Shown here in pieces: positions 5,541 through 18,661 of a DNA stretch of 38,616 bases (positions within the stretch are counted from its first letter, which is position 1; each line of letters begins with the position of its first letter). A model generated the notes under the pieces. The model saw only the letters and a program-made list of their open reading frames with translations, was not told the origin of the DNA and searched no databases. This stretch comes from Candidatus Hodarchaeota archaeon (GTDB lineage: Archaea > Asgardarchaeota > Heimdallarchaeia > Hodarchaeales > Hodarchaeaceae), in assembly GCA_016839785.1 (NCBI GenBank), contig JAEOTQ010000020.1, positions 1 through 38,616 on the forward strand, written 5' to 3'. The position numbers and the translations under genes are program-made.

Positions 5541-6077
5541 TCACCCAAACCAAAGGTATGTAAGCATCCCTAAACCACAAAACACAGAGCCTGAGATTTG
5601 CATCACCCAGAACCAGGCTAGTTCAGAAGTTGGTTTTTCTGTTTGAGCAACGAAATAATTGGATCCCCAGGCTTCGATTCTCTTCCCAATCGAATTACGA
5701 TGATCTTTCGTCACATAGATAAATGCTACCCGCTCACCAAATAACAGACCTCCAAGATAAATAGGTTCAAGCCCAGAAAACAGATCTACTATATAATGAA
5801 CCGCAAGTGCTACTGAAAACATATTTATTTCAGGATAGATCCTCACTGGAAATACAACCCAAATGAAAAGGACAAATAAATAATCGTGAGTGACCCTCCG
5901 AGCCATAATTTCAGAAATATTAAGTTTAACTAAAAATAATTCCAGAAAGTCAGAGATTTGACTACCTAATATGATAAAAATGATCCAAGTGGGATTGGAG
6001 GTGAAATTAATATCAAAGAATGCAAACCAGAAAAAGATGACTCCAAATACCCATTCAGTGTGTTTTAAGGCTTCCAT
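5541..6077 (-). CDS. Multi-pass membrane protein, degenerate paralogue of the upstream YdjM/DUF457-like protein
   Basis: 178 residues with about four to five hydrophobic helices. It lines up with the next gene along its length: HTEW for HLEW near the start, GSQISDFLE for GSDFPDIFD, RRVTHDY for HREISHT, HYIVDLFSGLEPIYL for HIMEDILAGRDPIYL, and ELAWFWVM for ELSWLWFL near the end. It has lost several of the Asp/His residues expected to bind metal, keeping mainly H94 and D98. It begins 16 bases after the stop of its paralogue, so the two are probably co-transcribed and may form a hetero-oligomer. The function is unknown; loss of metal ligands suggests a non-catalytic partner. Confidence 0.65.
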   Translation of the reverse strand: MEALKHTEWVFGVIFFWFAFFDINFTSNPTWIIFIILGSQISDFLELFLVKLNISEIMARRVTHDYLFVLFIWVVFPVRIYPEINMFSVALAVHYIVDLFSGLEPIYLGGLLFGERVAFIYVTKDHRNSIGKRIEAWGSNYFVAQTEKPTSELAWFWVMQISGSVFCGLGMLTYLWFG

Positions 6078-6093
6078 ACTTCAATCACATAAT

Positions 6094-6606
6094 TTAGCTA
6101 AAGTACATGAATATTCCAACAACTAAAAACCATGATCCAAGAATAGTTAAAAACCACAACCAAGATAGTTCATCACCAATATTTTCTGAACCATGATAAG
6201 AACTTTTTATCAAATTTCTGACCCTTCCACCGATTGCTATTGACTGTTCGATAGATACTATTTGTATAGCTCCTCTATGTGAGATTGGTGAGAATAAGTA
6301 TATTGGATCTCTTCCTGCAAGAATATCTTCCATGATGTGCATAATAGATCCGAGTGTAAGAAATGCTATTACAGGAATAAAGTAACTAATTACTAATAAA
6401 ACGCCAATGAAGAAAACTGTATGGGATATTTCTCGGTGTCCTTCCTGAAAGTGTTTTCCTCTATATAAAATCCAATCGAAAATATCTGGAAAGTCAGAAC
6501 CAATTCCTAGTAATAAAAAACTCAGAGCATCAAGAGGGATTTGGAAAATTGCGCAAAGCATTAACCCAAAGCCCAAGGTCCATTCTAAATGCCCAATTGG
6601 ATCCAC
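6094..6606 (-). CDS. YdjM/DUF457-like membrane-bound putative metal-dependent hydrolase
   Basis: 170 residues, mostly hydrophobic. The conserved polar set sits where the YdjM/DUF457 family has its putative metal site: GSDFPDIFD (D38, D41, D44), HREISHT (H57, H62) and HIMED (H90, D94). Members of that family are annotated as inner-membrane metal-dependent hydrolases, mostly without a proven substrate. The start is a GTG at 6606, chosen because GGAG lies six bases upstream on the minus strand. It leads a two-gene unit with its paralogue and diverges from the ABCE1 gene across a 255-base gap. The family call is by motif memory only. Confidence 0.6.
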   Translation of the reverse strand: MDPIGHLEWTLGFGLMLCAIFQIPLDALSFLLLGIGSDFPDIFDWILYRGKHFQEGHREISHTVFFIGVLLVISYFIPVIAFLTLGSIMHIMEDILAGRDPIYLFSPISHRGAIQIVSIEQSIAIGGRVRNLIKSSYHGSENIGDELSWLWFLTILGSWFLVVGIFMYFS

Positions 6607-8686: not shown

Positions 8687-9895
8687 TCAAAAGATGGGAA
8701 AAATTAGAGAAAACCATTCAGCAGGTAAGGGGAGGCATAGCAATATTAATATCAGCATACCTATCGCAACCATTTTGCGAGAAAGAGATAATTCAGTTAA
8801 ATCATCTAGAGGGCCTGAATGTCCTGTTTGTGAATACATAAATAATAGTAAGATTGCAAAAAACCAGAAACCGATTACTACTAGAACACCCGCACTAATA
8901 TAGGTGACGATGCGATGATTTTTTTCTGAAAACATACTTCTAGCAACATGTCCACCATCACTCTGACCGATAGGGATTAAGTTTAGTCCTGTAAGCAGAA
9001 ATCCAATAAAACCTGCATAAGCAAACGGATGTAGGAAAACTATAACACTATTGCTATATTGTGGAACGAAAAAATATGCGATGAGCTCAAATAATAATAT
9101 TCTCATTCGGTCAGGACTATTTAATCTCAGATCAAATAGTCCCAATGGATTAGAGAAATCCTGGGTTACCTCTGCAGCTGGTACAACGATCGAATTCATT
9201 AATCCTATTACAGAGAAAAAAATCGCGATCGCAAATCCAAAGATAGGTCCAGCTAGGCCAACATCGAATAGGTCATTCCGTGACCGTATAGGGGTTTTTT
9301 GAGAAATAAATGCGCCCATCGTTCCTAGACCTATGGGCATAGGGATAAAATGAGGCCAACTAGCTTTAATTCCATGAAGTCGTGAGGCAACCATATGTCC
9401 AATTTCATGTATTCCTACGATTCCCATTAAACTAATAACGTAAAATACGCCGACAATTATTGGATCAAGAGTTGGTTCAGCAATACGAAGATCGTCCCAC
9501 ATGGTCACACCAACTATAAATACAGAAATTACCGTTAGGATAAATAGGACAATAGGTGTACTCAAATTTTGTTTTGTTACAATCATTTTTTCTGGAATTG
9601 GAAATATATAAAGCATTCCCCTCGATTCGTGAACGGGATGAGATCGGATAAGAGACATGTAACCCATGGTTTTAAGCGTTTGATTAACTTGCTTAATATT
9701 GCCTCCAATATCGCTTCGTTTAAGAATTTCATAAACGGGGAATATCTCCTGTTGAAATGGAGAGCCAGATTCTGACGTTGGTCTATATTGTTTAGATGTA
9801 ACTGTAAAAAATTGGTTGATTAACTCATCTATTTGAGAGTACTTCCAGAATCCTGACATTAGACTTTCATGATGACTTAGGTACTTGGTTATCAA
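8687..9895 (-). CDS. M50 site-2-protease-type intramembrane metalloprotease
   Basis: The 402-residue protein has about 100 residues of soluble N-terminal region, then several membrane helices. The zinc motif HEIGH is at 163-167 inside a hydrophobic segment. A GLAGP turn at 213-217 and NLIPIGQSDGGH at about 305-316 give the third ligand D313, as in the NxxPxxxxDG motif of S2P proteases. Together these identify family M50. Family knowledge: such enzymes cut transmembrane segments of regulatory or signal proteins. The start at 9895 is a TTG with no clear ribosome site; an ATG at 9859 would shorten it by 12 residues without touching the domain. It is convergent with ABCE1. The target is unknown. 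Confidence 0.85.
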   Translation of the reverse strand: MITKYLSHHESLMSGFWKYSQIDELINQFFTVTSKQYRPTSESGSPFQQEIFPVYEILKRSDIGGNIKQVNQTLKTMGYMSLIRSHPVHESRGMLYIFPIPEKMIVTKQNLSTPIVLFILTVISVFIVGVTMWDDLRIAEPTLDPIIVGVFYVISLMGIVGIHEIGHMVASRLHGIKASWPHFIPMPIGLGTMGAFISQKTPIRSRNDLFDVGLAGPIFGFAIAIFFSVIGLMNSIVVPAAEVTQDFSNPLGLFDLRLNSPDRMRILLFELIAYFFVPQYSNSVIVFLHPFAYAGFIGFLLTGLNLIPIGQSDGGHVARSMFSEKNHRIVTYISAGVLVVIGFWFFAILLLFMYSQTGHSGPLDDLTELSLSRKMVAIGMLILILLCLPLPAEWFSLIFPIF

Positions 9896-9974: not shown

Positions 9975-10544
9975 TTAAATCCTAATTTTGAAGTCACGTA
10001 GAGGAATGGTATCTGGAAGGATGATATCAATAAGATCTTCATCGATTTCTTTTGCGAATGACCTATTGACTTGAACATTAACATACTTAGCAAGTTTTTT
10101 CAGGTCAACTGTCGATATATTATGACTTGTGGGAGTAATAAACATTCTTCCTTCTGAGCTCAAAACAAATGCAAATTCGTACAATCTATCCCAACTAGGT
10201 AGACGTATTTCTAGTAGAATAGAAATAAAACGGACAAATGGGATTTTAATTACATTCTTCATTAGAAAGAAGACAATCTCTTTCTTGTTATTTTGAATAC
10301 GAATATCAATTTCAGTACCTAAACATTTCACTCTAAGAATGGGAATTTCTCGCCAATATATTTGGCTAGGTTTTGTCGAATGATTGCAATAATCATCAAG
10401 AAATTCAATTGTTTTCCGTCTTACTTGACCAAGTGATAACAAAGTATCCAAGAAGTGAGTTAGTAAATTTGGAATGTTATCTGTTTCGTTCGTCTCAAAC
10501 ATTGTATGAAGAATATTACAGTCCATATTAGAGTCAATTATCAT
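9975..10544 (-). CDS. Conserved-looking unknown at the end of the Rag-GTPase gene cluster
   Basis: 189 residues, not recognised. It has no clear membrane helix and no Cys pairs. Its second half alternates short hydrophobic strands and helices (EIDIRIQ, EIVFFLMKN, EFAFVLSSEGRMFIT, FKIRI), which could be a small alpha/beta fold of roadblock or longin type, but this is only an impression. It starts 63 bases after the stop of the Rag-like gene upstream and has the same orientation, so it is probably the last gene of that cluster. The context suggests a GTPase partner. No ribosome-binding site is apparent before the ATG. Confidence 0.5.
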   Translation of the reverse strand: MIIDSNMDCNILHTMFETNETDNIPNLLTHFLDTLLSLGQVRRKTIEFLDDYCNHSTKPSQIYWREIPILRVKCLGTEIDIRIQNNKKEIVFFLMKNVIKIPFVRFISILLEIRLPSWDRLYEFAFVLSSEGRMFITPTSHNISTVDLKKLAKYVNVQVNRSFAKEIDEDLIDIILPDTIPLRDFKIRI

Positions 10545-10607
10545 GGGGATTTACGAATTTAAGTCGGTTTTAGATACAAAAATCCGCAAGTTCAACCGAA
10601 AATCCAG

Positions 10608-11540
10608 TTAACTCTCTGTGATACTTTGCAATTGAGAGCTAAAAGCAAAAACTTTATTATAGAGAGATGCAACAGGCTCATTTCTTTCTCTGAGTCGGCT
10701 TTTCGAAAATCCAAAGAATAATGCTAAACCGTTCTCCATGAAGCGGATAATAAATACACGTTGATCCGATTCGAGAAGCGTAGATGTAGCTGAATTCGTA
10801 TCTGAATCCGCTAGACGTTTAACTACGGCGTCAAAAAACTCTCTAACTTCATAAAGATTGATATGTTCAAATTTTGATACTTTTTCTACTTTGGTCAGTG
10901 GAGCTCCTTCTTTTGTGAATATTTGAGCCATATCTGCCATATTATGTTGGATGAAAGTCTCTAGGAGGGGACGTAATGTTTTTCTCGCACCACTTGCATC
11001 GGCATAAACTTCACCCATGGCTTTGAAGATTGAGTCAGAAAACACAGTGGTTTCATAATATTTAATTTGTTTAGGAATCCCTGATCCTAAGTAATCTTCG
11101 ATTGTTTTCCTGACTTCTTGTTTCATTTTCTTAGGAATTAAATCAGCTTTATGTTGAAAAATAAATAATGTCGCCTCTGGACTAAATTGGGCTAATTTCT
11201 TTACTGCCAAATCCAGATAATATTTTGCCCGTGAAATATTTTTAATTTCTATTGAGTCTACTACAAATACAAATGATTTTACTCCGCTAAAGATGAATTC
11301 TGATAATTCACCAGTGAATCGATCAAGAAATGCGGTTTGTCCCCCTAAATCGAATATGGTTAATTCCGTACCTGCAACAACCTTCTGCTTACGCTCATAG
11401 TCGATTGTAGCGTTATAATCATCATCTTTCTGTGGGATTTTCCCTTCATTGACCACTTTGATTATCGTAGATTTCCCTGATTCTGCTAATCCCAAGATAA
11501 GAACTTTAGAAATTTTCTTTTTTCTTCTTAAATGCGACAT
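10608..11540 (-). CDS. Rag/Gtr-like small GTPase with C-terminal extension
   Basis: The 310-residue protein has an intact G domain: G1 GLAESGKS (17-24), switch-I Thr45 in YNATIDYER, G3 DLGGQ (64-68) and G4 HKAD (130-133). HKxD in place of NKxD and the following TTVFSDSIFKAMG stretch (like the SIWDETLYKAW region of RagA) point to the Rag/Gtr family, not Arf or Ras. The C-terminal about 100 residues (KVEKVSKFEHI onward) would correspond to the roadblock dimerisation domain. Family knowledge: Rag GTPases work as dimers and report nutrient state at a membrane platform. It is the fourth gene of the cluster, 15 bases after the longin-like candidate. No lipidation site is visible, so membrane attachment would need a partner. 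Confidence 0.85.
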   Translation of the reverse strand: MSHLRRKKKISKVLILGLAESGKSTIIKVVNEGKIPQKDDDYNATIDYERKQKVVAGTELTIFDLGGQTAFLDRFTGELSEFIFSGVKSFVFVVDSIEIKNISRAKYYLDLAVKKLAQFSPEATLFIFQHKADLIPKKMKQEVRKTIEDYLGSGIPKQIKYYETTVFSDSIFKAMGEVYADASGARKTLRPLLETFIQHNMADMAQIFTKEGAPLTKVEKVSKFEHINLYEVREFFDAVVKRLADSDTNSATSTLLESDQRVFIIRFMENGLALFFGFSKSRLRERNEPVASLYNKVFAFSSQLQSITES

Positions 11541-11555
11541 CTTTGATAATAGCTC

Positions 11556-12362
11556 CTATTGGGAACCAATTTCCTGAATTACTCCGATCTTTTCTAAGAT
11601 CATTTCACGTTCCATTGGATCTGATACATTTCGTATGGAAAATCTACTTTTAAAGCGATTTGTATTAATGTTAGAAGCTGATGCTCCAGCATGAAACATC
11701 AAATGTTGAGAAATTGAATCTTTTAATTCTATAAGGAAAATCCGTTTAAGAAGTGTATTCACAAGAATGAGAACTGATAGTGCTCCAAGATCTGTTTGAA
11801 GGTTAATTTCTCTTAAATCTCCTTCAGTATTGACCGTAAAAAACTCAAGGCCCCCTTTCTCGTGAATATAAGATTGATCACTGTCAACTGGCACTGGGAC
11901 ATGTGGATCAGGTGATTCACAAATTTGCTTAATTCGGCTTAGAATTTTTTGCATTTTTTCTGGATCAGAGAGGTCTTTTTCGTCTTTAATATTCTTTGTT
12001 TCTTCCTGTAGTGCCCGTTCTATTGCAGGATGAAACTGAAAAACCGTCTTGCGATTTTCTGATTCAAAGAGAAGCCAAATCGTTGATTCTCGTCCATGTT
12101 GATCAATGCGAATATCTGTTGTCTCTGTTGGCGACACAGTAAAGGACATGGCAAGTGCCTCTATATTCGGGTTGTTTGGAATAGGAAGTGATCCGTGTAG
12201 ACGATAATGTTGTCTTTCGGCAAGTGTTCCTGCTCCCATAAAGAGGATGGTCATACCAATAACACTGAGATTTTCAGCTGTGTCCTCTGGAATGGGAGAT
12301 AGATTTAATAGAGGGTAAGGACCCCTGTCGCCCATAGTCGTAACAATTAGTCCAGAAAACAC
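11556..12362 (-). CDS. Unknown, possible longin-like protein in the Rag cluster
   Basis: 268 residues. The opening strand (FSGLIVTTMGDRGPYPLLN) followed by a helix and LSVIGMTILFMGAG resembles the start of longin/profilin-type domains, which in Asgard genomes often accompany small GTPases; this is a weak inference. The middle has a charged helical stretch (about 128-150) and the C-terminal half contains DLGALSVLILVNTLLKRIFLIELKD, which may be a helix-strand pair. The start is a GTG at 12362, supported by GAGGT seven bases upstream on the minus strand. It sits between the pseudo-Rag (30 bases) and a Rag-like GTPase (15 bases). A scaffold or regulator role similar to Ragulator or GATOR parts is possible but unproven. 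Confidence 0.5.
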   Translation of the reverse strand: MFSGLIVTTMGDRGPYPLLNLSPIPEDTAENLSVIGMTILFMGAGTLAERQHYRLHGSLPIPNNPNIEALAMSFTVSPTETTDIRIDQHGRESTIWLLFESENRKTVFQFHPAIERALQEETKNIKDEKDLSDPEKMQKILSRIKQICESPDPHVPVPVDSDQSYIHEKGGLEFFTVNTEGDLREINLQTDLGALSVLILVNTLLKRIFLIELKDSISQHLMFHAGASASNINTNRFKSRFSIRNVSDPMEREMILEKIGVIQEIGSQ

Positions 12363-12392
12363 GGTTTATACCTCTTATCTGATAACTTTGTT

Positions 12393-13337
12393 TCATTTTA
12401 GTATTTCAAAAATCTCTGTTGTAAGATCGAGACAACTTTCTTCTATTCGAGGATATGGTTCCGCATCATACTTAAAAACTGATTCCCTTCCAACCAAGAT
12501 AATTTTATTCTCAGCATTAATCCTTTTTGTTATCATAACGAAATCTTCGATCCGAATAATGTCTGCTTGATATTTGGGGCCTACATCAAAGACGTTAAAT
12601 TGTGCTAACATCCGAATAATTTGTGGGCCCACTTTTGTTTCCCATCCCTCACTTTTTCCGACTGCAATTAAAATATCTTGGTTGTATCCTATTAGATAAG
12701 CACCGGAGAAGCCCCAATCTTCCATTTTTCCCTTCAAAATTCTTTTGATTTTCTTCAACTGCTTATCATTAACCTTTTTTACGGTTGAATCTTTGTTATT
12801 CTCAAGAGTCTTACTAAAGTCGGCTGCTTTATTTACTATCTGAGTGAAAGCCATATTCGTCATTCGCTGTTCATCTGGACCTTTCAATGAGACAGTATAA
12901 GACGTAATATCTTTAGGAATAAGCTGTTGGAGATGTTTCTCGACATTTTTCCGAATTTTATTTCTTTCTAATTCGTTTGGAATTAGATGGCCTCTATTAA
13001 CTATCAGTATCACTTGAAAATCTTTGTTTACTTCACTTATATCAAAAAAAATTTCTTTAAAATCGTTTGCCAGGTCGTCCATTACTTGATATGAAATATC
13101 ATGGACGTAAATCAGAGTATTGATTTTCAAATATAGTTTTTCTCTCAAAGCGGGTAATATCTTTTCGAAATATGACTCTTCGTTCCCTTTGAGAGATTTA
13201 TTAAGCCAATCATAGTAAATGAGATTCTTACGAATCCTCAGTCCTGACTCCGCACGTCCCAATTTTAGTAGCTGGTTAAACAGAAGATCTTTTCCAGAGT
13301 GCGATAACCCAGCTACTACGATTAGGTTTTGTTGCAA
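12393..13337 (-). CDS. Rag-like pseudo-GTPase with C-terminal roadblock-like domain
   Basis: 314 residues. The start (NLIVVAGLSHSGKDLLFNQL) matches a Rag-like beta1/P-loop, but the Mg-binding Ser/Thr is Asp (GLSHSGKD, D17), the DxxGQ motif is absent (YYDWLNKS, 41-48) and G4 is NRGH (114-117) in place of HKxD/NKxD. GTP hydrolysis is therefore unlikely. Residues about 195-314 (KMEDWGFSGAYLIGYNQDIL, then helix) look like a roadblock/LC7-type domain. The start is a TTG at 13337, supported by GAGGT seven bases upstream. It lies 10 bases after the active Rag-like gene, so the two products could form a heterodimer with one working nucleotide site. Family assignment rests on motif alignment and context. 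Confidence 0.68.
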   Translation of the reverse strand: MQQNLIVVAGLSHSGKDLLFNQLLKLGRAESGLRIRKNLIYYDWLNKSLKGNEESYFEKILPALREKLYLKINTLIYVHDISYQVMDDLANDFKEIFFDISEVNKDFQVILIVNRGHLIPNELERNKIRKNVEKHLQQLIPKDITSYTVSLKGPDEQRMTNMAFTQIVNKAADFSKTLENNKDSTVKKVNDKQLKKIKRILKGKMEDWGFSGAYLIGYNQDILIAVGKSEGWETKVGPQIIRMLAQFNVFDVGPKYQADIIRIEDFVMITKRINAENKIILVGRESVFKYDAEPYPRIEESCLDLTTEIFEILK

Positions 13338-13347
13338 AGTGGTACCT

Positions 13348-14352
13348 CTATATAGGTGTTTTTAGCATGTTTTCTAGTTGAGATGTAAGTAAACGAATGG
13401 TTTCTTCAATTTCTATTAATTTCCTTGTTTCCAACATAGATTTTATATCGGAGGAAACTAACAGAATTAGATACTGAGGAGGAACAGAAGCTCTGAATAA
13501 CATAATGTCTCCAATTTTCACTAATTCGGATTTTGAACTGGGAATTAGCCATAAATCACTTGACTTATCAAGAATGGTAATCAATTGTTTGATTTCATTG
13601 ATATCTGTCTCAGAGGCACTAATAATAAAATCTGGTTCCACTGTAGATAATAAAAGGACTTCATCCAGACGATTCATAAATTTTAACGCATGCAGTACTT
13701 GTTGAATAGGGCGCATTCGTAATCGTCTCTGAATGGCCTCCAGGTCTTCTTCTTTTTCGACTACAGTTGCTTCTGGAATGATTTCACTTGCTTCAGCCGT
13801 AATACGCTTAAAAGCTTCGTGAATTGAATTATCATAAATTGAGGTTTGAAGAAATGTTATATTTTTTGTCACAACCGAAGATTGATACATCTCCATTAGA
13901 AATTCCATTCTTTCTGCTCTTTGGGTTAAATCAGGCATTAAATCCGTTTTATGCAATAAAATGTATACCGCTGGTTGAACGTCTGACATCTCTTCCAACC
14001 GATTGGTACCTTCAACGAACGCTTTTAGTGATGCAGGAAATTTATCAGGGGTTGAAATATCACAAATATAAACCAGAACTGCGACATTACTGAAAATGAA
14101 GGAACTCATACTGCTTAGGAATCGTTTCAAAAAAACTTCCTGTCCTCCAAGATCCATAACGGTAATAGGTTCATCAGCCACTTGCTCTACTTGACGTTCA
14201 TAATTCAACGTTGCAGCATAATCAGCAGTTTCTTCCGGTAATTTACCTCCGAAGACAACATCACGGATAGAGGTTTTTCCTGCTTGAGAAAGGCCTAAAA
14301 GTATAATTTTTCGGGTACTTTGGGTCTTTAATTGCTTGAGATAGTGACTCAT
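13348..14352 (-). CDS. Rag/Gtr-like small GTPase, first gene of the cluster
   Basis: 334 residues. G1 is GLSQAGKT (20-27), switch-I Thr48 lies in YAATLNYER, G3 is DLGGQ (67-71) and G4 is HKTD (134-137). TSIYDNSIHEAFKRI (170-184) matches the Rag-family segment after G5. The region from about 208 to the end is the right length for a roadblock-type dimerisation domain. The ATG at 14352 has AAGGT nine bases upstream. It is first in a same-strand series of five closely spaced genes, so its promoter should lie in the 268-base gap to the right. It closely resembles the GTPase encoded at 10608-11540 in motif spelling (Y-x-A-T-[IL]-x-Y-E-R), so the two are probably paralogues. Confidence 0.86.
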   Translation of the reverse strand: MSHYLKQLKTQSTRKIILLGLSQAGKTSIRDVVFGGKLPEETADYAATLNYERQVEQVADEPITVMDLGGQEVFLKRFLSSMSSFIFSNVAVLVYICDISTPDKFPASLKAFVEGTNRLEEMSDVQPAVYILLHKTDLMPDLTQRAERMEFLMEMYQSSVVTKNITFLQTSIYDNSIHEAFKRITAEASEIIPEATVVEKEEDLEAIQRRLRMRPIQQVLHALKFMNRLDEVLLLSTVEPDFIISASETDINEIKQLITILDKSSDLWLIPSSKSELVKIGDIMLFRASVPPQYLILLVSSDIKSMLETRKLIEIEETIRLLTSQLENMLKTPI

Positions 14353-17749: not shown

Positions 17750-18661
17750 ATGAGAAGTATGAAAATTTCACTAGTCGGTCTTAGCGGTTGTGGAAAAACA
17801 TCAATCTATTCAACAACTTTTGGAGGAATGACTCCTTTAGAAGTCAAAGATCTTGGGCCTACGGTAATGTATGAGGTCAAAAGCCATAATTATCTTGGCA
17901 TTCAAGTTTCATTATGGGATTTTGGGGGCCAAGAAAAATATCGTCAAAGTTATCTGGAAACTCCAAAGTTACTGGCAAATACGTCAATTTTGGTATTTGT
18001 CCTTGATCTTCACCACCCTGAGAATTTTAAATTGGCCAACGAATACTTTGAAAATGTTTATTCAGCAATTAAAGAACAGGGAGGAGATCCAAGAGTAAAA
18101 ATATTTTATCACAAATATGATACAGAGGACTATGCGGAAGTGGCTCTTGAAGAGAGTCTCAATAAGGCTAAACAACTTCCTTTCGTTGTGAAATTTACTC
18201 CACGTGAATTTTTAACTTCGGTTTATAGACAAGAGGAACTTAGCGATTTTATAAAACAAATTTTAATCGCTGATTTTGAGGAATTGAAGAAAAGTGTTGA
18301 AGGTGCTCAGGAATTCTTATCAAACTTAAAATCCAAGATTATAATAACCGATGTTAATGGAAACGTAATTACGCATAATATCGAAGGATTTGCTACTGGA
18401 ATTCAACTGCGTGAGGATTTACGTGAGTATATTTTCGCATGTAATGTTCTACGGGAGAATTTCTTGACATCAGAGTCCGCTTCTTTTATAGCCAGCTCTG
18501 AAGTAAAGCAGTTGAAAGTCCATATCTATAATTATGTGTTAACAGTTCTAATCATGATGGATGAACATGAATCAGCTGATCCACCAGAGAAAATTAATGA
18601 ATTATTGAAAGAGATGGAAATATTCTCAGAATTGCTGGTCGAGATGAGTAGTGAGGAATAA
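17750..18661 (+). CDS. Rag/Gtr-like small GTPase, stand-alone
   Basis: 303 residues. G1 GLSGCGKT (10-17), switch-I Thr38 in GPTVMYEV, G3 DFGGQ (57-61) and G4 HKYD (121-124) are all intact. HKxD and the TSVYRQEELSDFIKQI stretch after G5 place it with Rag/Gtr GTPases; DFGGQEKYR and HKYD recall the RagC/Gtr2 side more than RagA, a tentative reading. The C-terminal about 120 residues (SKIIITDVNGNVITHNIEGF onward) fit a roadblock-type dimerisation domain. Start choice: ATG 17750 has GAGG only three bases away, while the second ATG at 17759 has it 12 bases away, so either may be used. It is transcribed alone, away from the main Rag cluster on the other side of trpS and the MFS gene. Confidence 0.84.
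   Translation: MRSMKISLVGLSGCGKTSIYSTTFGGMTPLEVKDLGPTVMYEVKSHNYLGIQVSLWDFGGQEKYRQSYLETPKLLANTSILVFVLDLHHPENFKLANEYFENVYSAIKEQGGDPRVKIFYHKYDTEDYAEVALEESLNKAKQLPFVVKFTPREFLTSVYRQEELSDFIKQILIADFEELKKSVEGAQEFLSNLKSKIIITDVNGNVITHNIEGFATGIQLREDLREYIFACNVLRENFLTSESASFIASSEVKQLKVHIYNYVLTVLIMMDEHESADPPEKINELLKEMEIFSELLVEMSSEE

Follow-up and report, generated by a model that had tools for sequence, protein, structure and literature searches.

The window analysed here, 38,616 bases (G000:C129) of a 4.0-Mb Hodarchaeales (Asgard) genome, carries at positions 9975-14352 of the minus strand a cluster of five open reading frames (ORFs), which we call, in reading order, A1, A2, A3, A4 and A5. A1 and A4 are intact Rag-type GTPases, A2 is a Rag-like protein that has lost key GTPase motifs, and A3 is modelled as a longin domain followed by a gelsolin-like domain. 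The gene order is conserved within the genus, the genes are under purifying selection, and a trio of an intact GTPase-roadblock protein, a degenerate GTPase-roadblock protein and a longin-gelsolin protein recurs in other families with Arf-type in place of Rag-type GTPases. The explanation to which we incline, with limited confidence, is that the genes specify a single signalling complex of Rag-type GTPases, with A2 as its switchless half and A3 as its regulator, a GTPase-activating protein (GAP). We consider it likely that the products form a physical complex, while the GAP role of A3, taken on its own, is a tentative proposal with the chances somewhat against it.

Intact and degenerate Rag-type GTPases

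An ORF check in the window found the genes as the first-pass annotation had described them, on one strand and 10-63 bases apart, with gaps of 10 (A1/A2), 30 (A2/A3), 15 (A3/A4) and 63 (A4/A5) nucleotides (nt). Two of the genes had been singled out for intact Rag-like motifs (HKTD, HKAD), and both carry a full G1, DLGGQ and HKxD: A1 has GLSQAGKT, DLGGQ and HKTD, and A4 has GLAESGKS, DLGGQ and HKAD. DLGGQ is present in all aligned orthologues of A1 and A4; the G4 motif is HKTD in A1 and HKAD, HKTD or HKVD among the A4 orthologues. Both proteins match Pfam Gtr1_RagA (PF04670) well above the curated cut-off of 22, A1 with 118 bits (5.3e-34) and A4 with 110 bits (1.2e-31), and their best PDB chains are Gtr1 (3e-18) and RagA (1.5e-18), respectively. 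In a G-domain tree they group with the eukaryotic Rags and are separated from Arf and Rab (split 99/96), and they are 35% identical to each other across this domain. A divergent Rag-type GTPase of 303 amino acids (aa), with DFGGQ and HKYD, is encoded 3.4 kb upstream in the opposite orientation (17750-18661, plus strand); most genomes of the genus keep it close to the cluster, and it groups with long GTPases of families f5 and f6.

A2 reads GLSHSGKD at G1, where Asp replaces Ser/Thr, has no DxxG and shows NRGH at G4. The loss of the G1 Ser/Thr reported earlier is exact, with the correction that the P-loop itself survives, the Walker-A GK being kept. The same defects are found in 12/12 orthologues in the alignment, among which the GxxxxGK loop, NRGH and a SLKG at the G5 position are invariant, so that the catalytically altered partner suspected at the outset is a real and conserved protein. 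Gtr1_RagA is matched by A2 (1e-5) and by 12/12 members of its family. An AlphaFold2 (AF2) model with a predicted local distance difference test (pLDDT) score of 74, made from an alignment of A2 orthologues alone with no intact Rag in it, matches RagA/RagC over nearly its full length in Foldseek (RagA E-value 1.8e-14), and its C-terminal domain matches MglB with a target TM-score (TMt) of 0.77. Rag fold and homology are thus both found in A2, functional G1, G3 and G4 motifs are not, and the motif losses therefore make it a pseudo-GTPase relative rather than an active Rag. Since the defects are identical in 12/12 orthologues and the ratio of non-synonymous to synonymous substitution rates (dN/dS) is about 0.08, A2 is not decaying; pseudogene decay is ruled out by the invariance of its unusual motifs together with this ratio. 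A search of 228 genomes of the phylum recovered A2 in the genus only, besides two weak G-domain matches. A second degenerate Rag is encoded in the window's genome on C16 (L065:1143-3200), a 685-aa A1 paralogue without G3 that keeps HKSD.

Roadblock domains, whose absence would have counted against the original proposal, are found in A2 by fold, in A4 by profile and in A1 by way of A2. A profile of the A4 C-terminal domain and its paralogues gave eight PDB matches up to an E-value of 10, all of them chains of the dynein-roadblock kind (best 0.024). The assignment for A1 is indirect: its profile aligns with that of A2 over 293 columns including the C-terminal domain (E-value 3e-4), which, given the MglB-like domain of A2, suggests a roadblock in A1.

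The order A1-A2-A3-A4 is kept in 10 of the 11 other genomes of the genus at approximately 50-96% protein identity; here and below, the genomes compared are metagenome-assembled, and counts inside one genus or family are not independent events. In the eleventh genome (G040) the contig ends inside A2, and in G047 a contig edge cuts A1. The A3 orthologue of G037 (L053:3455-4258) is interrupted by an in-frame stop, which is either an assembly error or the mark of a broken copy. The flanks vary more, the upstream TrpRS gene being missing at L049, L050, L052 and L055. Median dN/dS values among close relatives are 0.04 (A1), 0.08 (A2), 0.09 (A3), 0.02 (A4) and 0.14 (A5); several dS values exceed 1, so these figures are approximate, and all are far below 1. 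Conservation of the cluster, the other point on which the original proposal could have failed, is thus borne out, within limits: the order is kept in the genus, the exact five-gene set is specific to it, and what is more widely common is the smaller unit of a GTPase, a degenerate GTPase and a longin-gelsolin protein.

The longin-gelsolin protein and its recurring partners

A3 had been listed as a longin-like candidate, and the fold evidence bears this out. An AF2 model made from 25 diverse family members (pLDDT 81) shows the longin order of elements, beta-beta-alpha-beta-beta-beta-alpha-alpha, followed by a second domain. The top Foldseek match is the Loki longin 8yqg (1.4e-5), followed by GATOR1 (3e-3), gelsolin domain 2 and FLCN-FNIP2 (5e-3), and further down by Thorarchaeal ProGel (TMt 0.71) and the Lst4 longin; among the best 50 matches, the only eukaryotic longins are GATOR1, FLCN-FNIP2 and Lst4. 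Because the matches are to longins and gelsolins, we assign A3, on the strength of the model, a longin and a gelsolin-like domain, the latter being an addition to the first-pass annotation, which had the longin only. The Pfam longin family gave no match for A3, and a PDB search with the A3 family profile returned nothing significant, the gelsolin-like chain that it placed at an E-value of 0.61 later agreeing with the fold search. The nearest public relatives of the genome, labelled Candidatus Hodarchaeota and Heimdallarchaeota B3, show 88-89% identity in A3. In one A3 paralogue subfamily (L060:8022-9044, L021:1498-2523 and L103:3933-4955) the C-terminal part looks TPR-like instead of gelsolin-like, and Pfam TPR_8 is found in 4 members of the A3 family alignment.

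Residues invariant in 25/25 members of the A3 family include D12, G14, P15, D83, R85, I86, G90 and R91. The last five belong to a motif, D83-x-R85-I-x(3)-G90-R91, in the beta4-beta5 loop, with R85 and R91 modelled between beta4 and the start of beta5, and all GTPase-adjacent A3-family proteins checked carry D-x-R-I..G-R. We take the beta4-beta5 region to be the site of the arginine fingers of NPRL2 and FLCN, and the letters R78 (NPRL2) and R164 (FLCN) were confirmed in those protein sequences. NPRL2 Arg78 is cited, and an Arg147 finger of SMCR8 and longin GAPs are described, in PMC8213707.

The A3 family occurs across the class and weakly beyond it. Two GTPase genes precede an A3-family gene in families f4 and f7. 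The leading one is intact (GxxxxGKT, DLGGH, NKxD); the other lacks G3 and, in f7, a normal G4 as well. The C-terminal parts of both GTPases are long and, judged by eye, resemble roadblocks. In all 29 f4 and f7 genomes in which the G3-less gene was found, it adjoins the A3-family gene and has the same orientation, 28-259 nt apart in aligned coordinates. The GTPases of these trios are of the Arf type, and the order intact-degenerate-longin is thus common to two GTPase types. The degenerate members of the Rag and Arf-type units may share ancestry. Closer to the window, family f2 of the same taxonomic order has a Rag-Rag-longin arrangement, the window's own genome has a longin gene adjoining a Rag pair (C78) and another adjoining a Rag gene (C41), and by position a Rag pair has a longin gene within about 2 kb in G038, G041, G043, G044, G046 and G047. 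Two further arrangements were noted. On C149 of G047 (L080:1045-3834), an A1 paralogue (59%) and an A4-like GTPase whose G1 reads GRN adjoin a protein of 287 aa with a match to A1 in the C-terminal part only, making another intact/degenerate Rag cluster. In family f5 (L096 and L097), an A3-family gene is followed by a protein of about 200 aa, not a GTPase, with longin/roadblock-like letters (YILDE.GIPLFARTY).

A candidate GTPase complex and its alternatives

In the model that we infer for the complex, its pairing partners, the GAP role and an upstream signal, A1, A2 and A4 would form pairs by way of their roadblock domains. The GTP/GDP switches would be A1 and A4, and A2 would be a fixed, switchless pseudo-GTPase that makes up the rigid half of a heterodimer; its likeliest partner is A1, which lies next to it and matches it best over the full length. 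A3 would bind the active GTPase at its switch face. The likeliest role of the longin domain there is GTPase activation by an arginine of the beta4-beta5 loop (R91 or R85), comparable to NPRL2 R78 and FLCN R164.

Several observations weigh against this model. The D-x-R-I..G-R motif is also found in stand-alone A3-family proteins, and the matches of A3 to GATOR1 and FLCN-FNIP2 are weak (E-values 3e-3 to 5e-3) beside that to the Loki longin. Neither profile comparison nor MAFFT detected homology of A3 to NPRL2 or placed its arginines on NPRL2 R78, so that the arginine-finger idea draws on fold and loop position only. Longin domains, moreover, also serve as guanine nucleotide exchange factors (GEFs) and scaffolds. 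For A2, the clade tests allow both a grouping with A1 (p 0.40) and one with the G3-less Arf-type line (p 0.10), so that it may descend from either.

The same complex could instead use A3 as a scaffold or exchange factor that holds A2 and recruits or loads A1 and A4, with the gelsolin-like domain binding actin or another partner. Longin dimers can work as platforms or, like Mon1-Ccz1 and TRAPP, as GEFs; A3 is matched best by a Loki longin whose activity is uncharacterised; and across three families the gene constantly found with A3 is that of the degenerate GTPase rather than of any one active GTPase. Such a role would, however, leave the invariant beta4-beta5 arginines without an obvious function, and it sits poorly with the restriction of the eukaryotic longins in the fold search to GATOR1, FLCN-FNIP2 and Lst4; we regard it as possible, though on balance doubtful.

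About as doubtful is a reading in which A2 is an atypical nucleotide binder, built around GKD and NRGH, that is constitutively loaded with GDP, ATP or another nucleotide and acts as a sensor. It would account for the invariance of GxxxxGK, NRGH and SLKG, which a pure scaffold does not need; yet A2 has no DxxG, and Asp replaces the Mg-binding Ser/Thr.

The first-pass annotation had seen in the cluster a likeness to an ancestral nutrient-sensing platform, an idea taken here as direct ancestry of the eukaryotic RagA/C-Ragulator-GATOR/FLCN system. Hodarchaeales are close to eukaryotes (PMC10307638), and the cluster contains Rag-family GTPases as well as roadblock and longin domains. Tree-clade tests, however, rejected A4+RagA (p 0.033) and A1+RagA (p 0.039) and gave p 0.069 for A1+RagC, so that 'ancestral' in the sense of direct orthology is not supported: 1:1 descent of RagA/RagC from the cluster genes is mildly disfavoured. 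Orthology of A1 with RagC and of A4 with RagA, considered for the likeness of their motifs by eye, was likewise unsupported by the clade tests. Separate roadblock proteins of the LAMTOR type, as in the Ragulator scaffold, were not recognised within the cluster, where A5 is without a match, and the second domain of A3 is gelsolin-like, not DENN. A nutrient link was not seen either; beyond the family name nothing speaks for or against a nutrient-sensing role, which is thus no more than a suggestion. Direct ancestry is, taken together, improbable. The remaining alternative, that the genes are merely co-inherited neighbours, as the synteny of the surrounding TrpRS, MFS, M50 and ABC genes in close relatives might suggest, is highly improbable, since the A1-A4 order survives where the flanks differ (L049, L050, L052) and other families show the same arrangement built on another type of GTPase.

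A broader form of the GAP model would see in the Heimdallarchaeia a unit in which a longin arginine-finger GAP acts on a pair of active and switchless GTPase-roadblock proteins, of Rag type or Arf type, independently of eukaryotes and perhaps before them; we consider this unlikely, if less so than direct ancestry.

Comparison with known systems, A5 and flanking genes

Like the eukaryotic Rags (RagA/B-RagC/D, Gtr1-Gtr2), the cluster has PF04670 proteins with HKxD, a G domain followed by a roadblock domain and more than one paralogue; it differs in its third, degenerate partner, its operon-like genes and the lack of a known TORC1 or lysosome, and no 1:1 orthology was seen. Lokiarchaeal Rag-like GTPases of MK-D1 (PMC10933270; PDB 8yl2 LokiRagO, 8zla LokiRagM) are also GTPase-roadblock proteins. 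MK-D1 has one Rag-like pair in an operon, a predicted heterodimer, but operons that combine its GTPase genes with roadblock or longin genes are not the general rule (PMC10933270), whereas in the Hodarchaeales cluster GTPase genes are joined by those of a conserved pseudo-Rag and of a longin-gelsolin protein. With NPRL2 (GATOR1), FLCN-FNIP and Lst4, A3 shares the longin fold, a GP hairpin motif, beta4-beta5 arginines and an association with Rags, here a genomic one; unlike them, it is a single gene with a gelsolin-like C-terminal domain, and comparison with the GATOR1/FLCN-type GAPs detected neither sequence homology nor a DENN domain. In MglA-MglB of Myxococcus a small GTPase and a roadblock domain likewise belong to one regulatory unit, but the roadblock is a separate GAP there and is fused to each GTPase in the cluster. 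We found no paper that describes, for Asgard archaea, either a pseudo-Rag or a partner of the longin-gelsolin type, which is weak evidence, as most subscription papers and all bioRxiv preprints were outside the search.

The pairing of Asgard small GTPases with their regulators is hard to read from genome layout, as has been said for MK-D1 (PMC10933270). In archaea that are close to eukaryotes, the cluster and its counterparts in two families link a defined set of GTPases to one specific candidate regulator, and the origin of Rag-longin control therefore becomes testable with four small proteins. If the broader form of the GAP model is true, the way in which longin GAPs act on Rags in GATOR1 and FLCN-FNIP would be older than TORC1 and the lysosome. 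Asymmetry of the two halves is a hallmark of Rag heterodimers, and a switchless GTPase kept as a partner would, if true, mean that such asymmetry may have arisen more than once.

Table 1. Genes of the cluster and the next gene downstream.
Gene	Product	Coordinates	Strand	Remarks
A1	Intact Rag-type GTPase, 334 aa	13348..14352	-	G domain 1-190 and roadblock-type C-terminal domain
A2	Degenerate Rag-like protein, 314 aa	12393..13337	-	G-domain fold and roadblock domain
A3	Longin (~1-123) and gelsolin-like (~170-258) protein, 268 aa	11556..12362	-	AF2, Foldseek, family alignment
A4	Second intact Rag-type GTPase, 310 aa	10608..11540	-	Pfam, PDB match, C-domain profile
A5	189 aa (probably 183 aa, start 10526)	9975..10544	-	No Pfam/NCBIfam match
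	M50 membrane peptidase	8687..9895	-	Follows A5 on the same strand after 79 nt

The more likely start of A5 is the ATG at 10526, because its orthologues begin at that Met, and the A4/A5 gap would therefore be 81 nt. A5 is genus-restricted and the fastest evolving of the five, with 34% identity to distant orthologues; it gave no PDB match below an E-value of 0.65 and no match to either longins or roadblocks, as a relative of which it had been considered. It follows A4 in 9/10 genomes, G037 (L053) having an MscS-type channel there instead. The M50 peptidase gene adjoins the cluster in every genome whose contig reaches that far, even where other flanks change, and perhaps belongs to its transcription unit. 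A promoter and terminator scan found sites no commoner than in shuffled sequence, its bacterial consensus making it uninformative here, and no RNA families were found in the window. Further along the minus strand, two adjacent YdjM-like membrane proteins (5541-6606) are probably a tandem duplicate, because their G037 homologues match each other's family.

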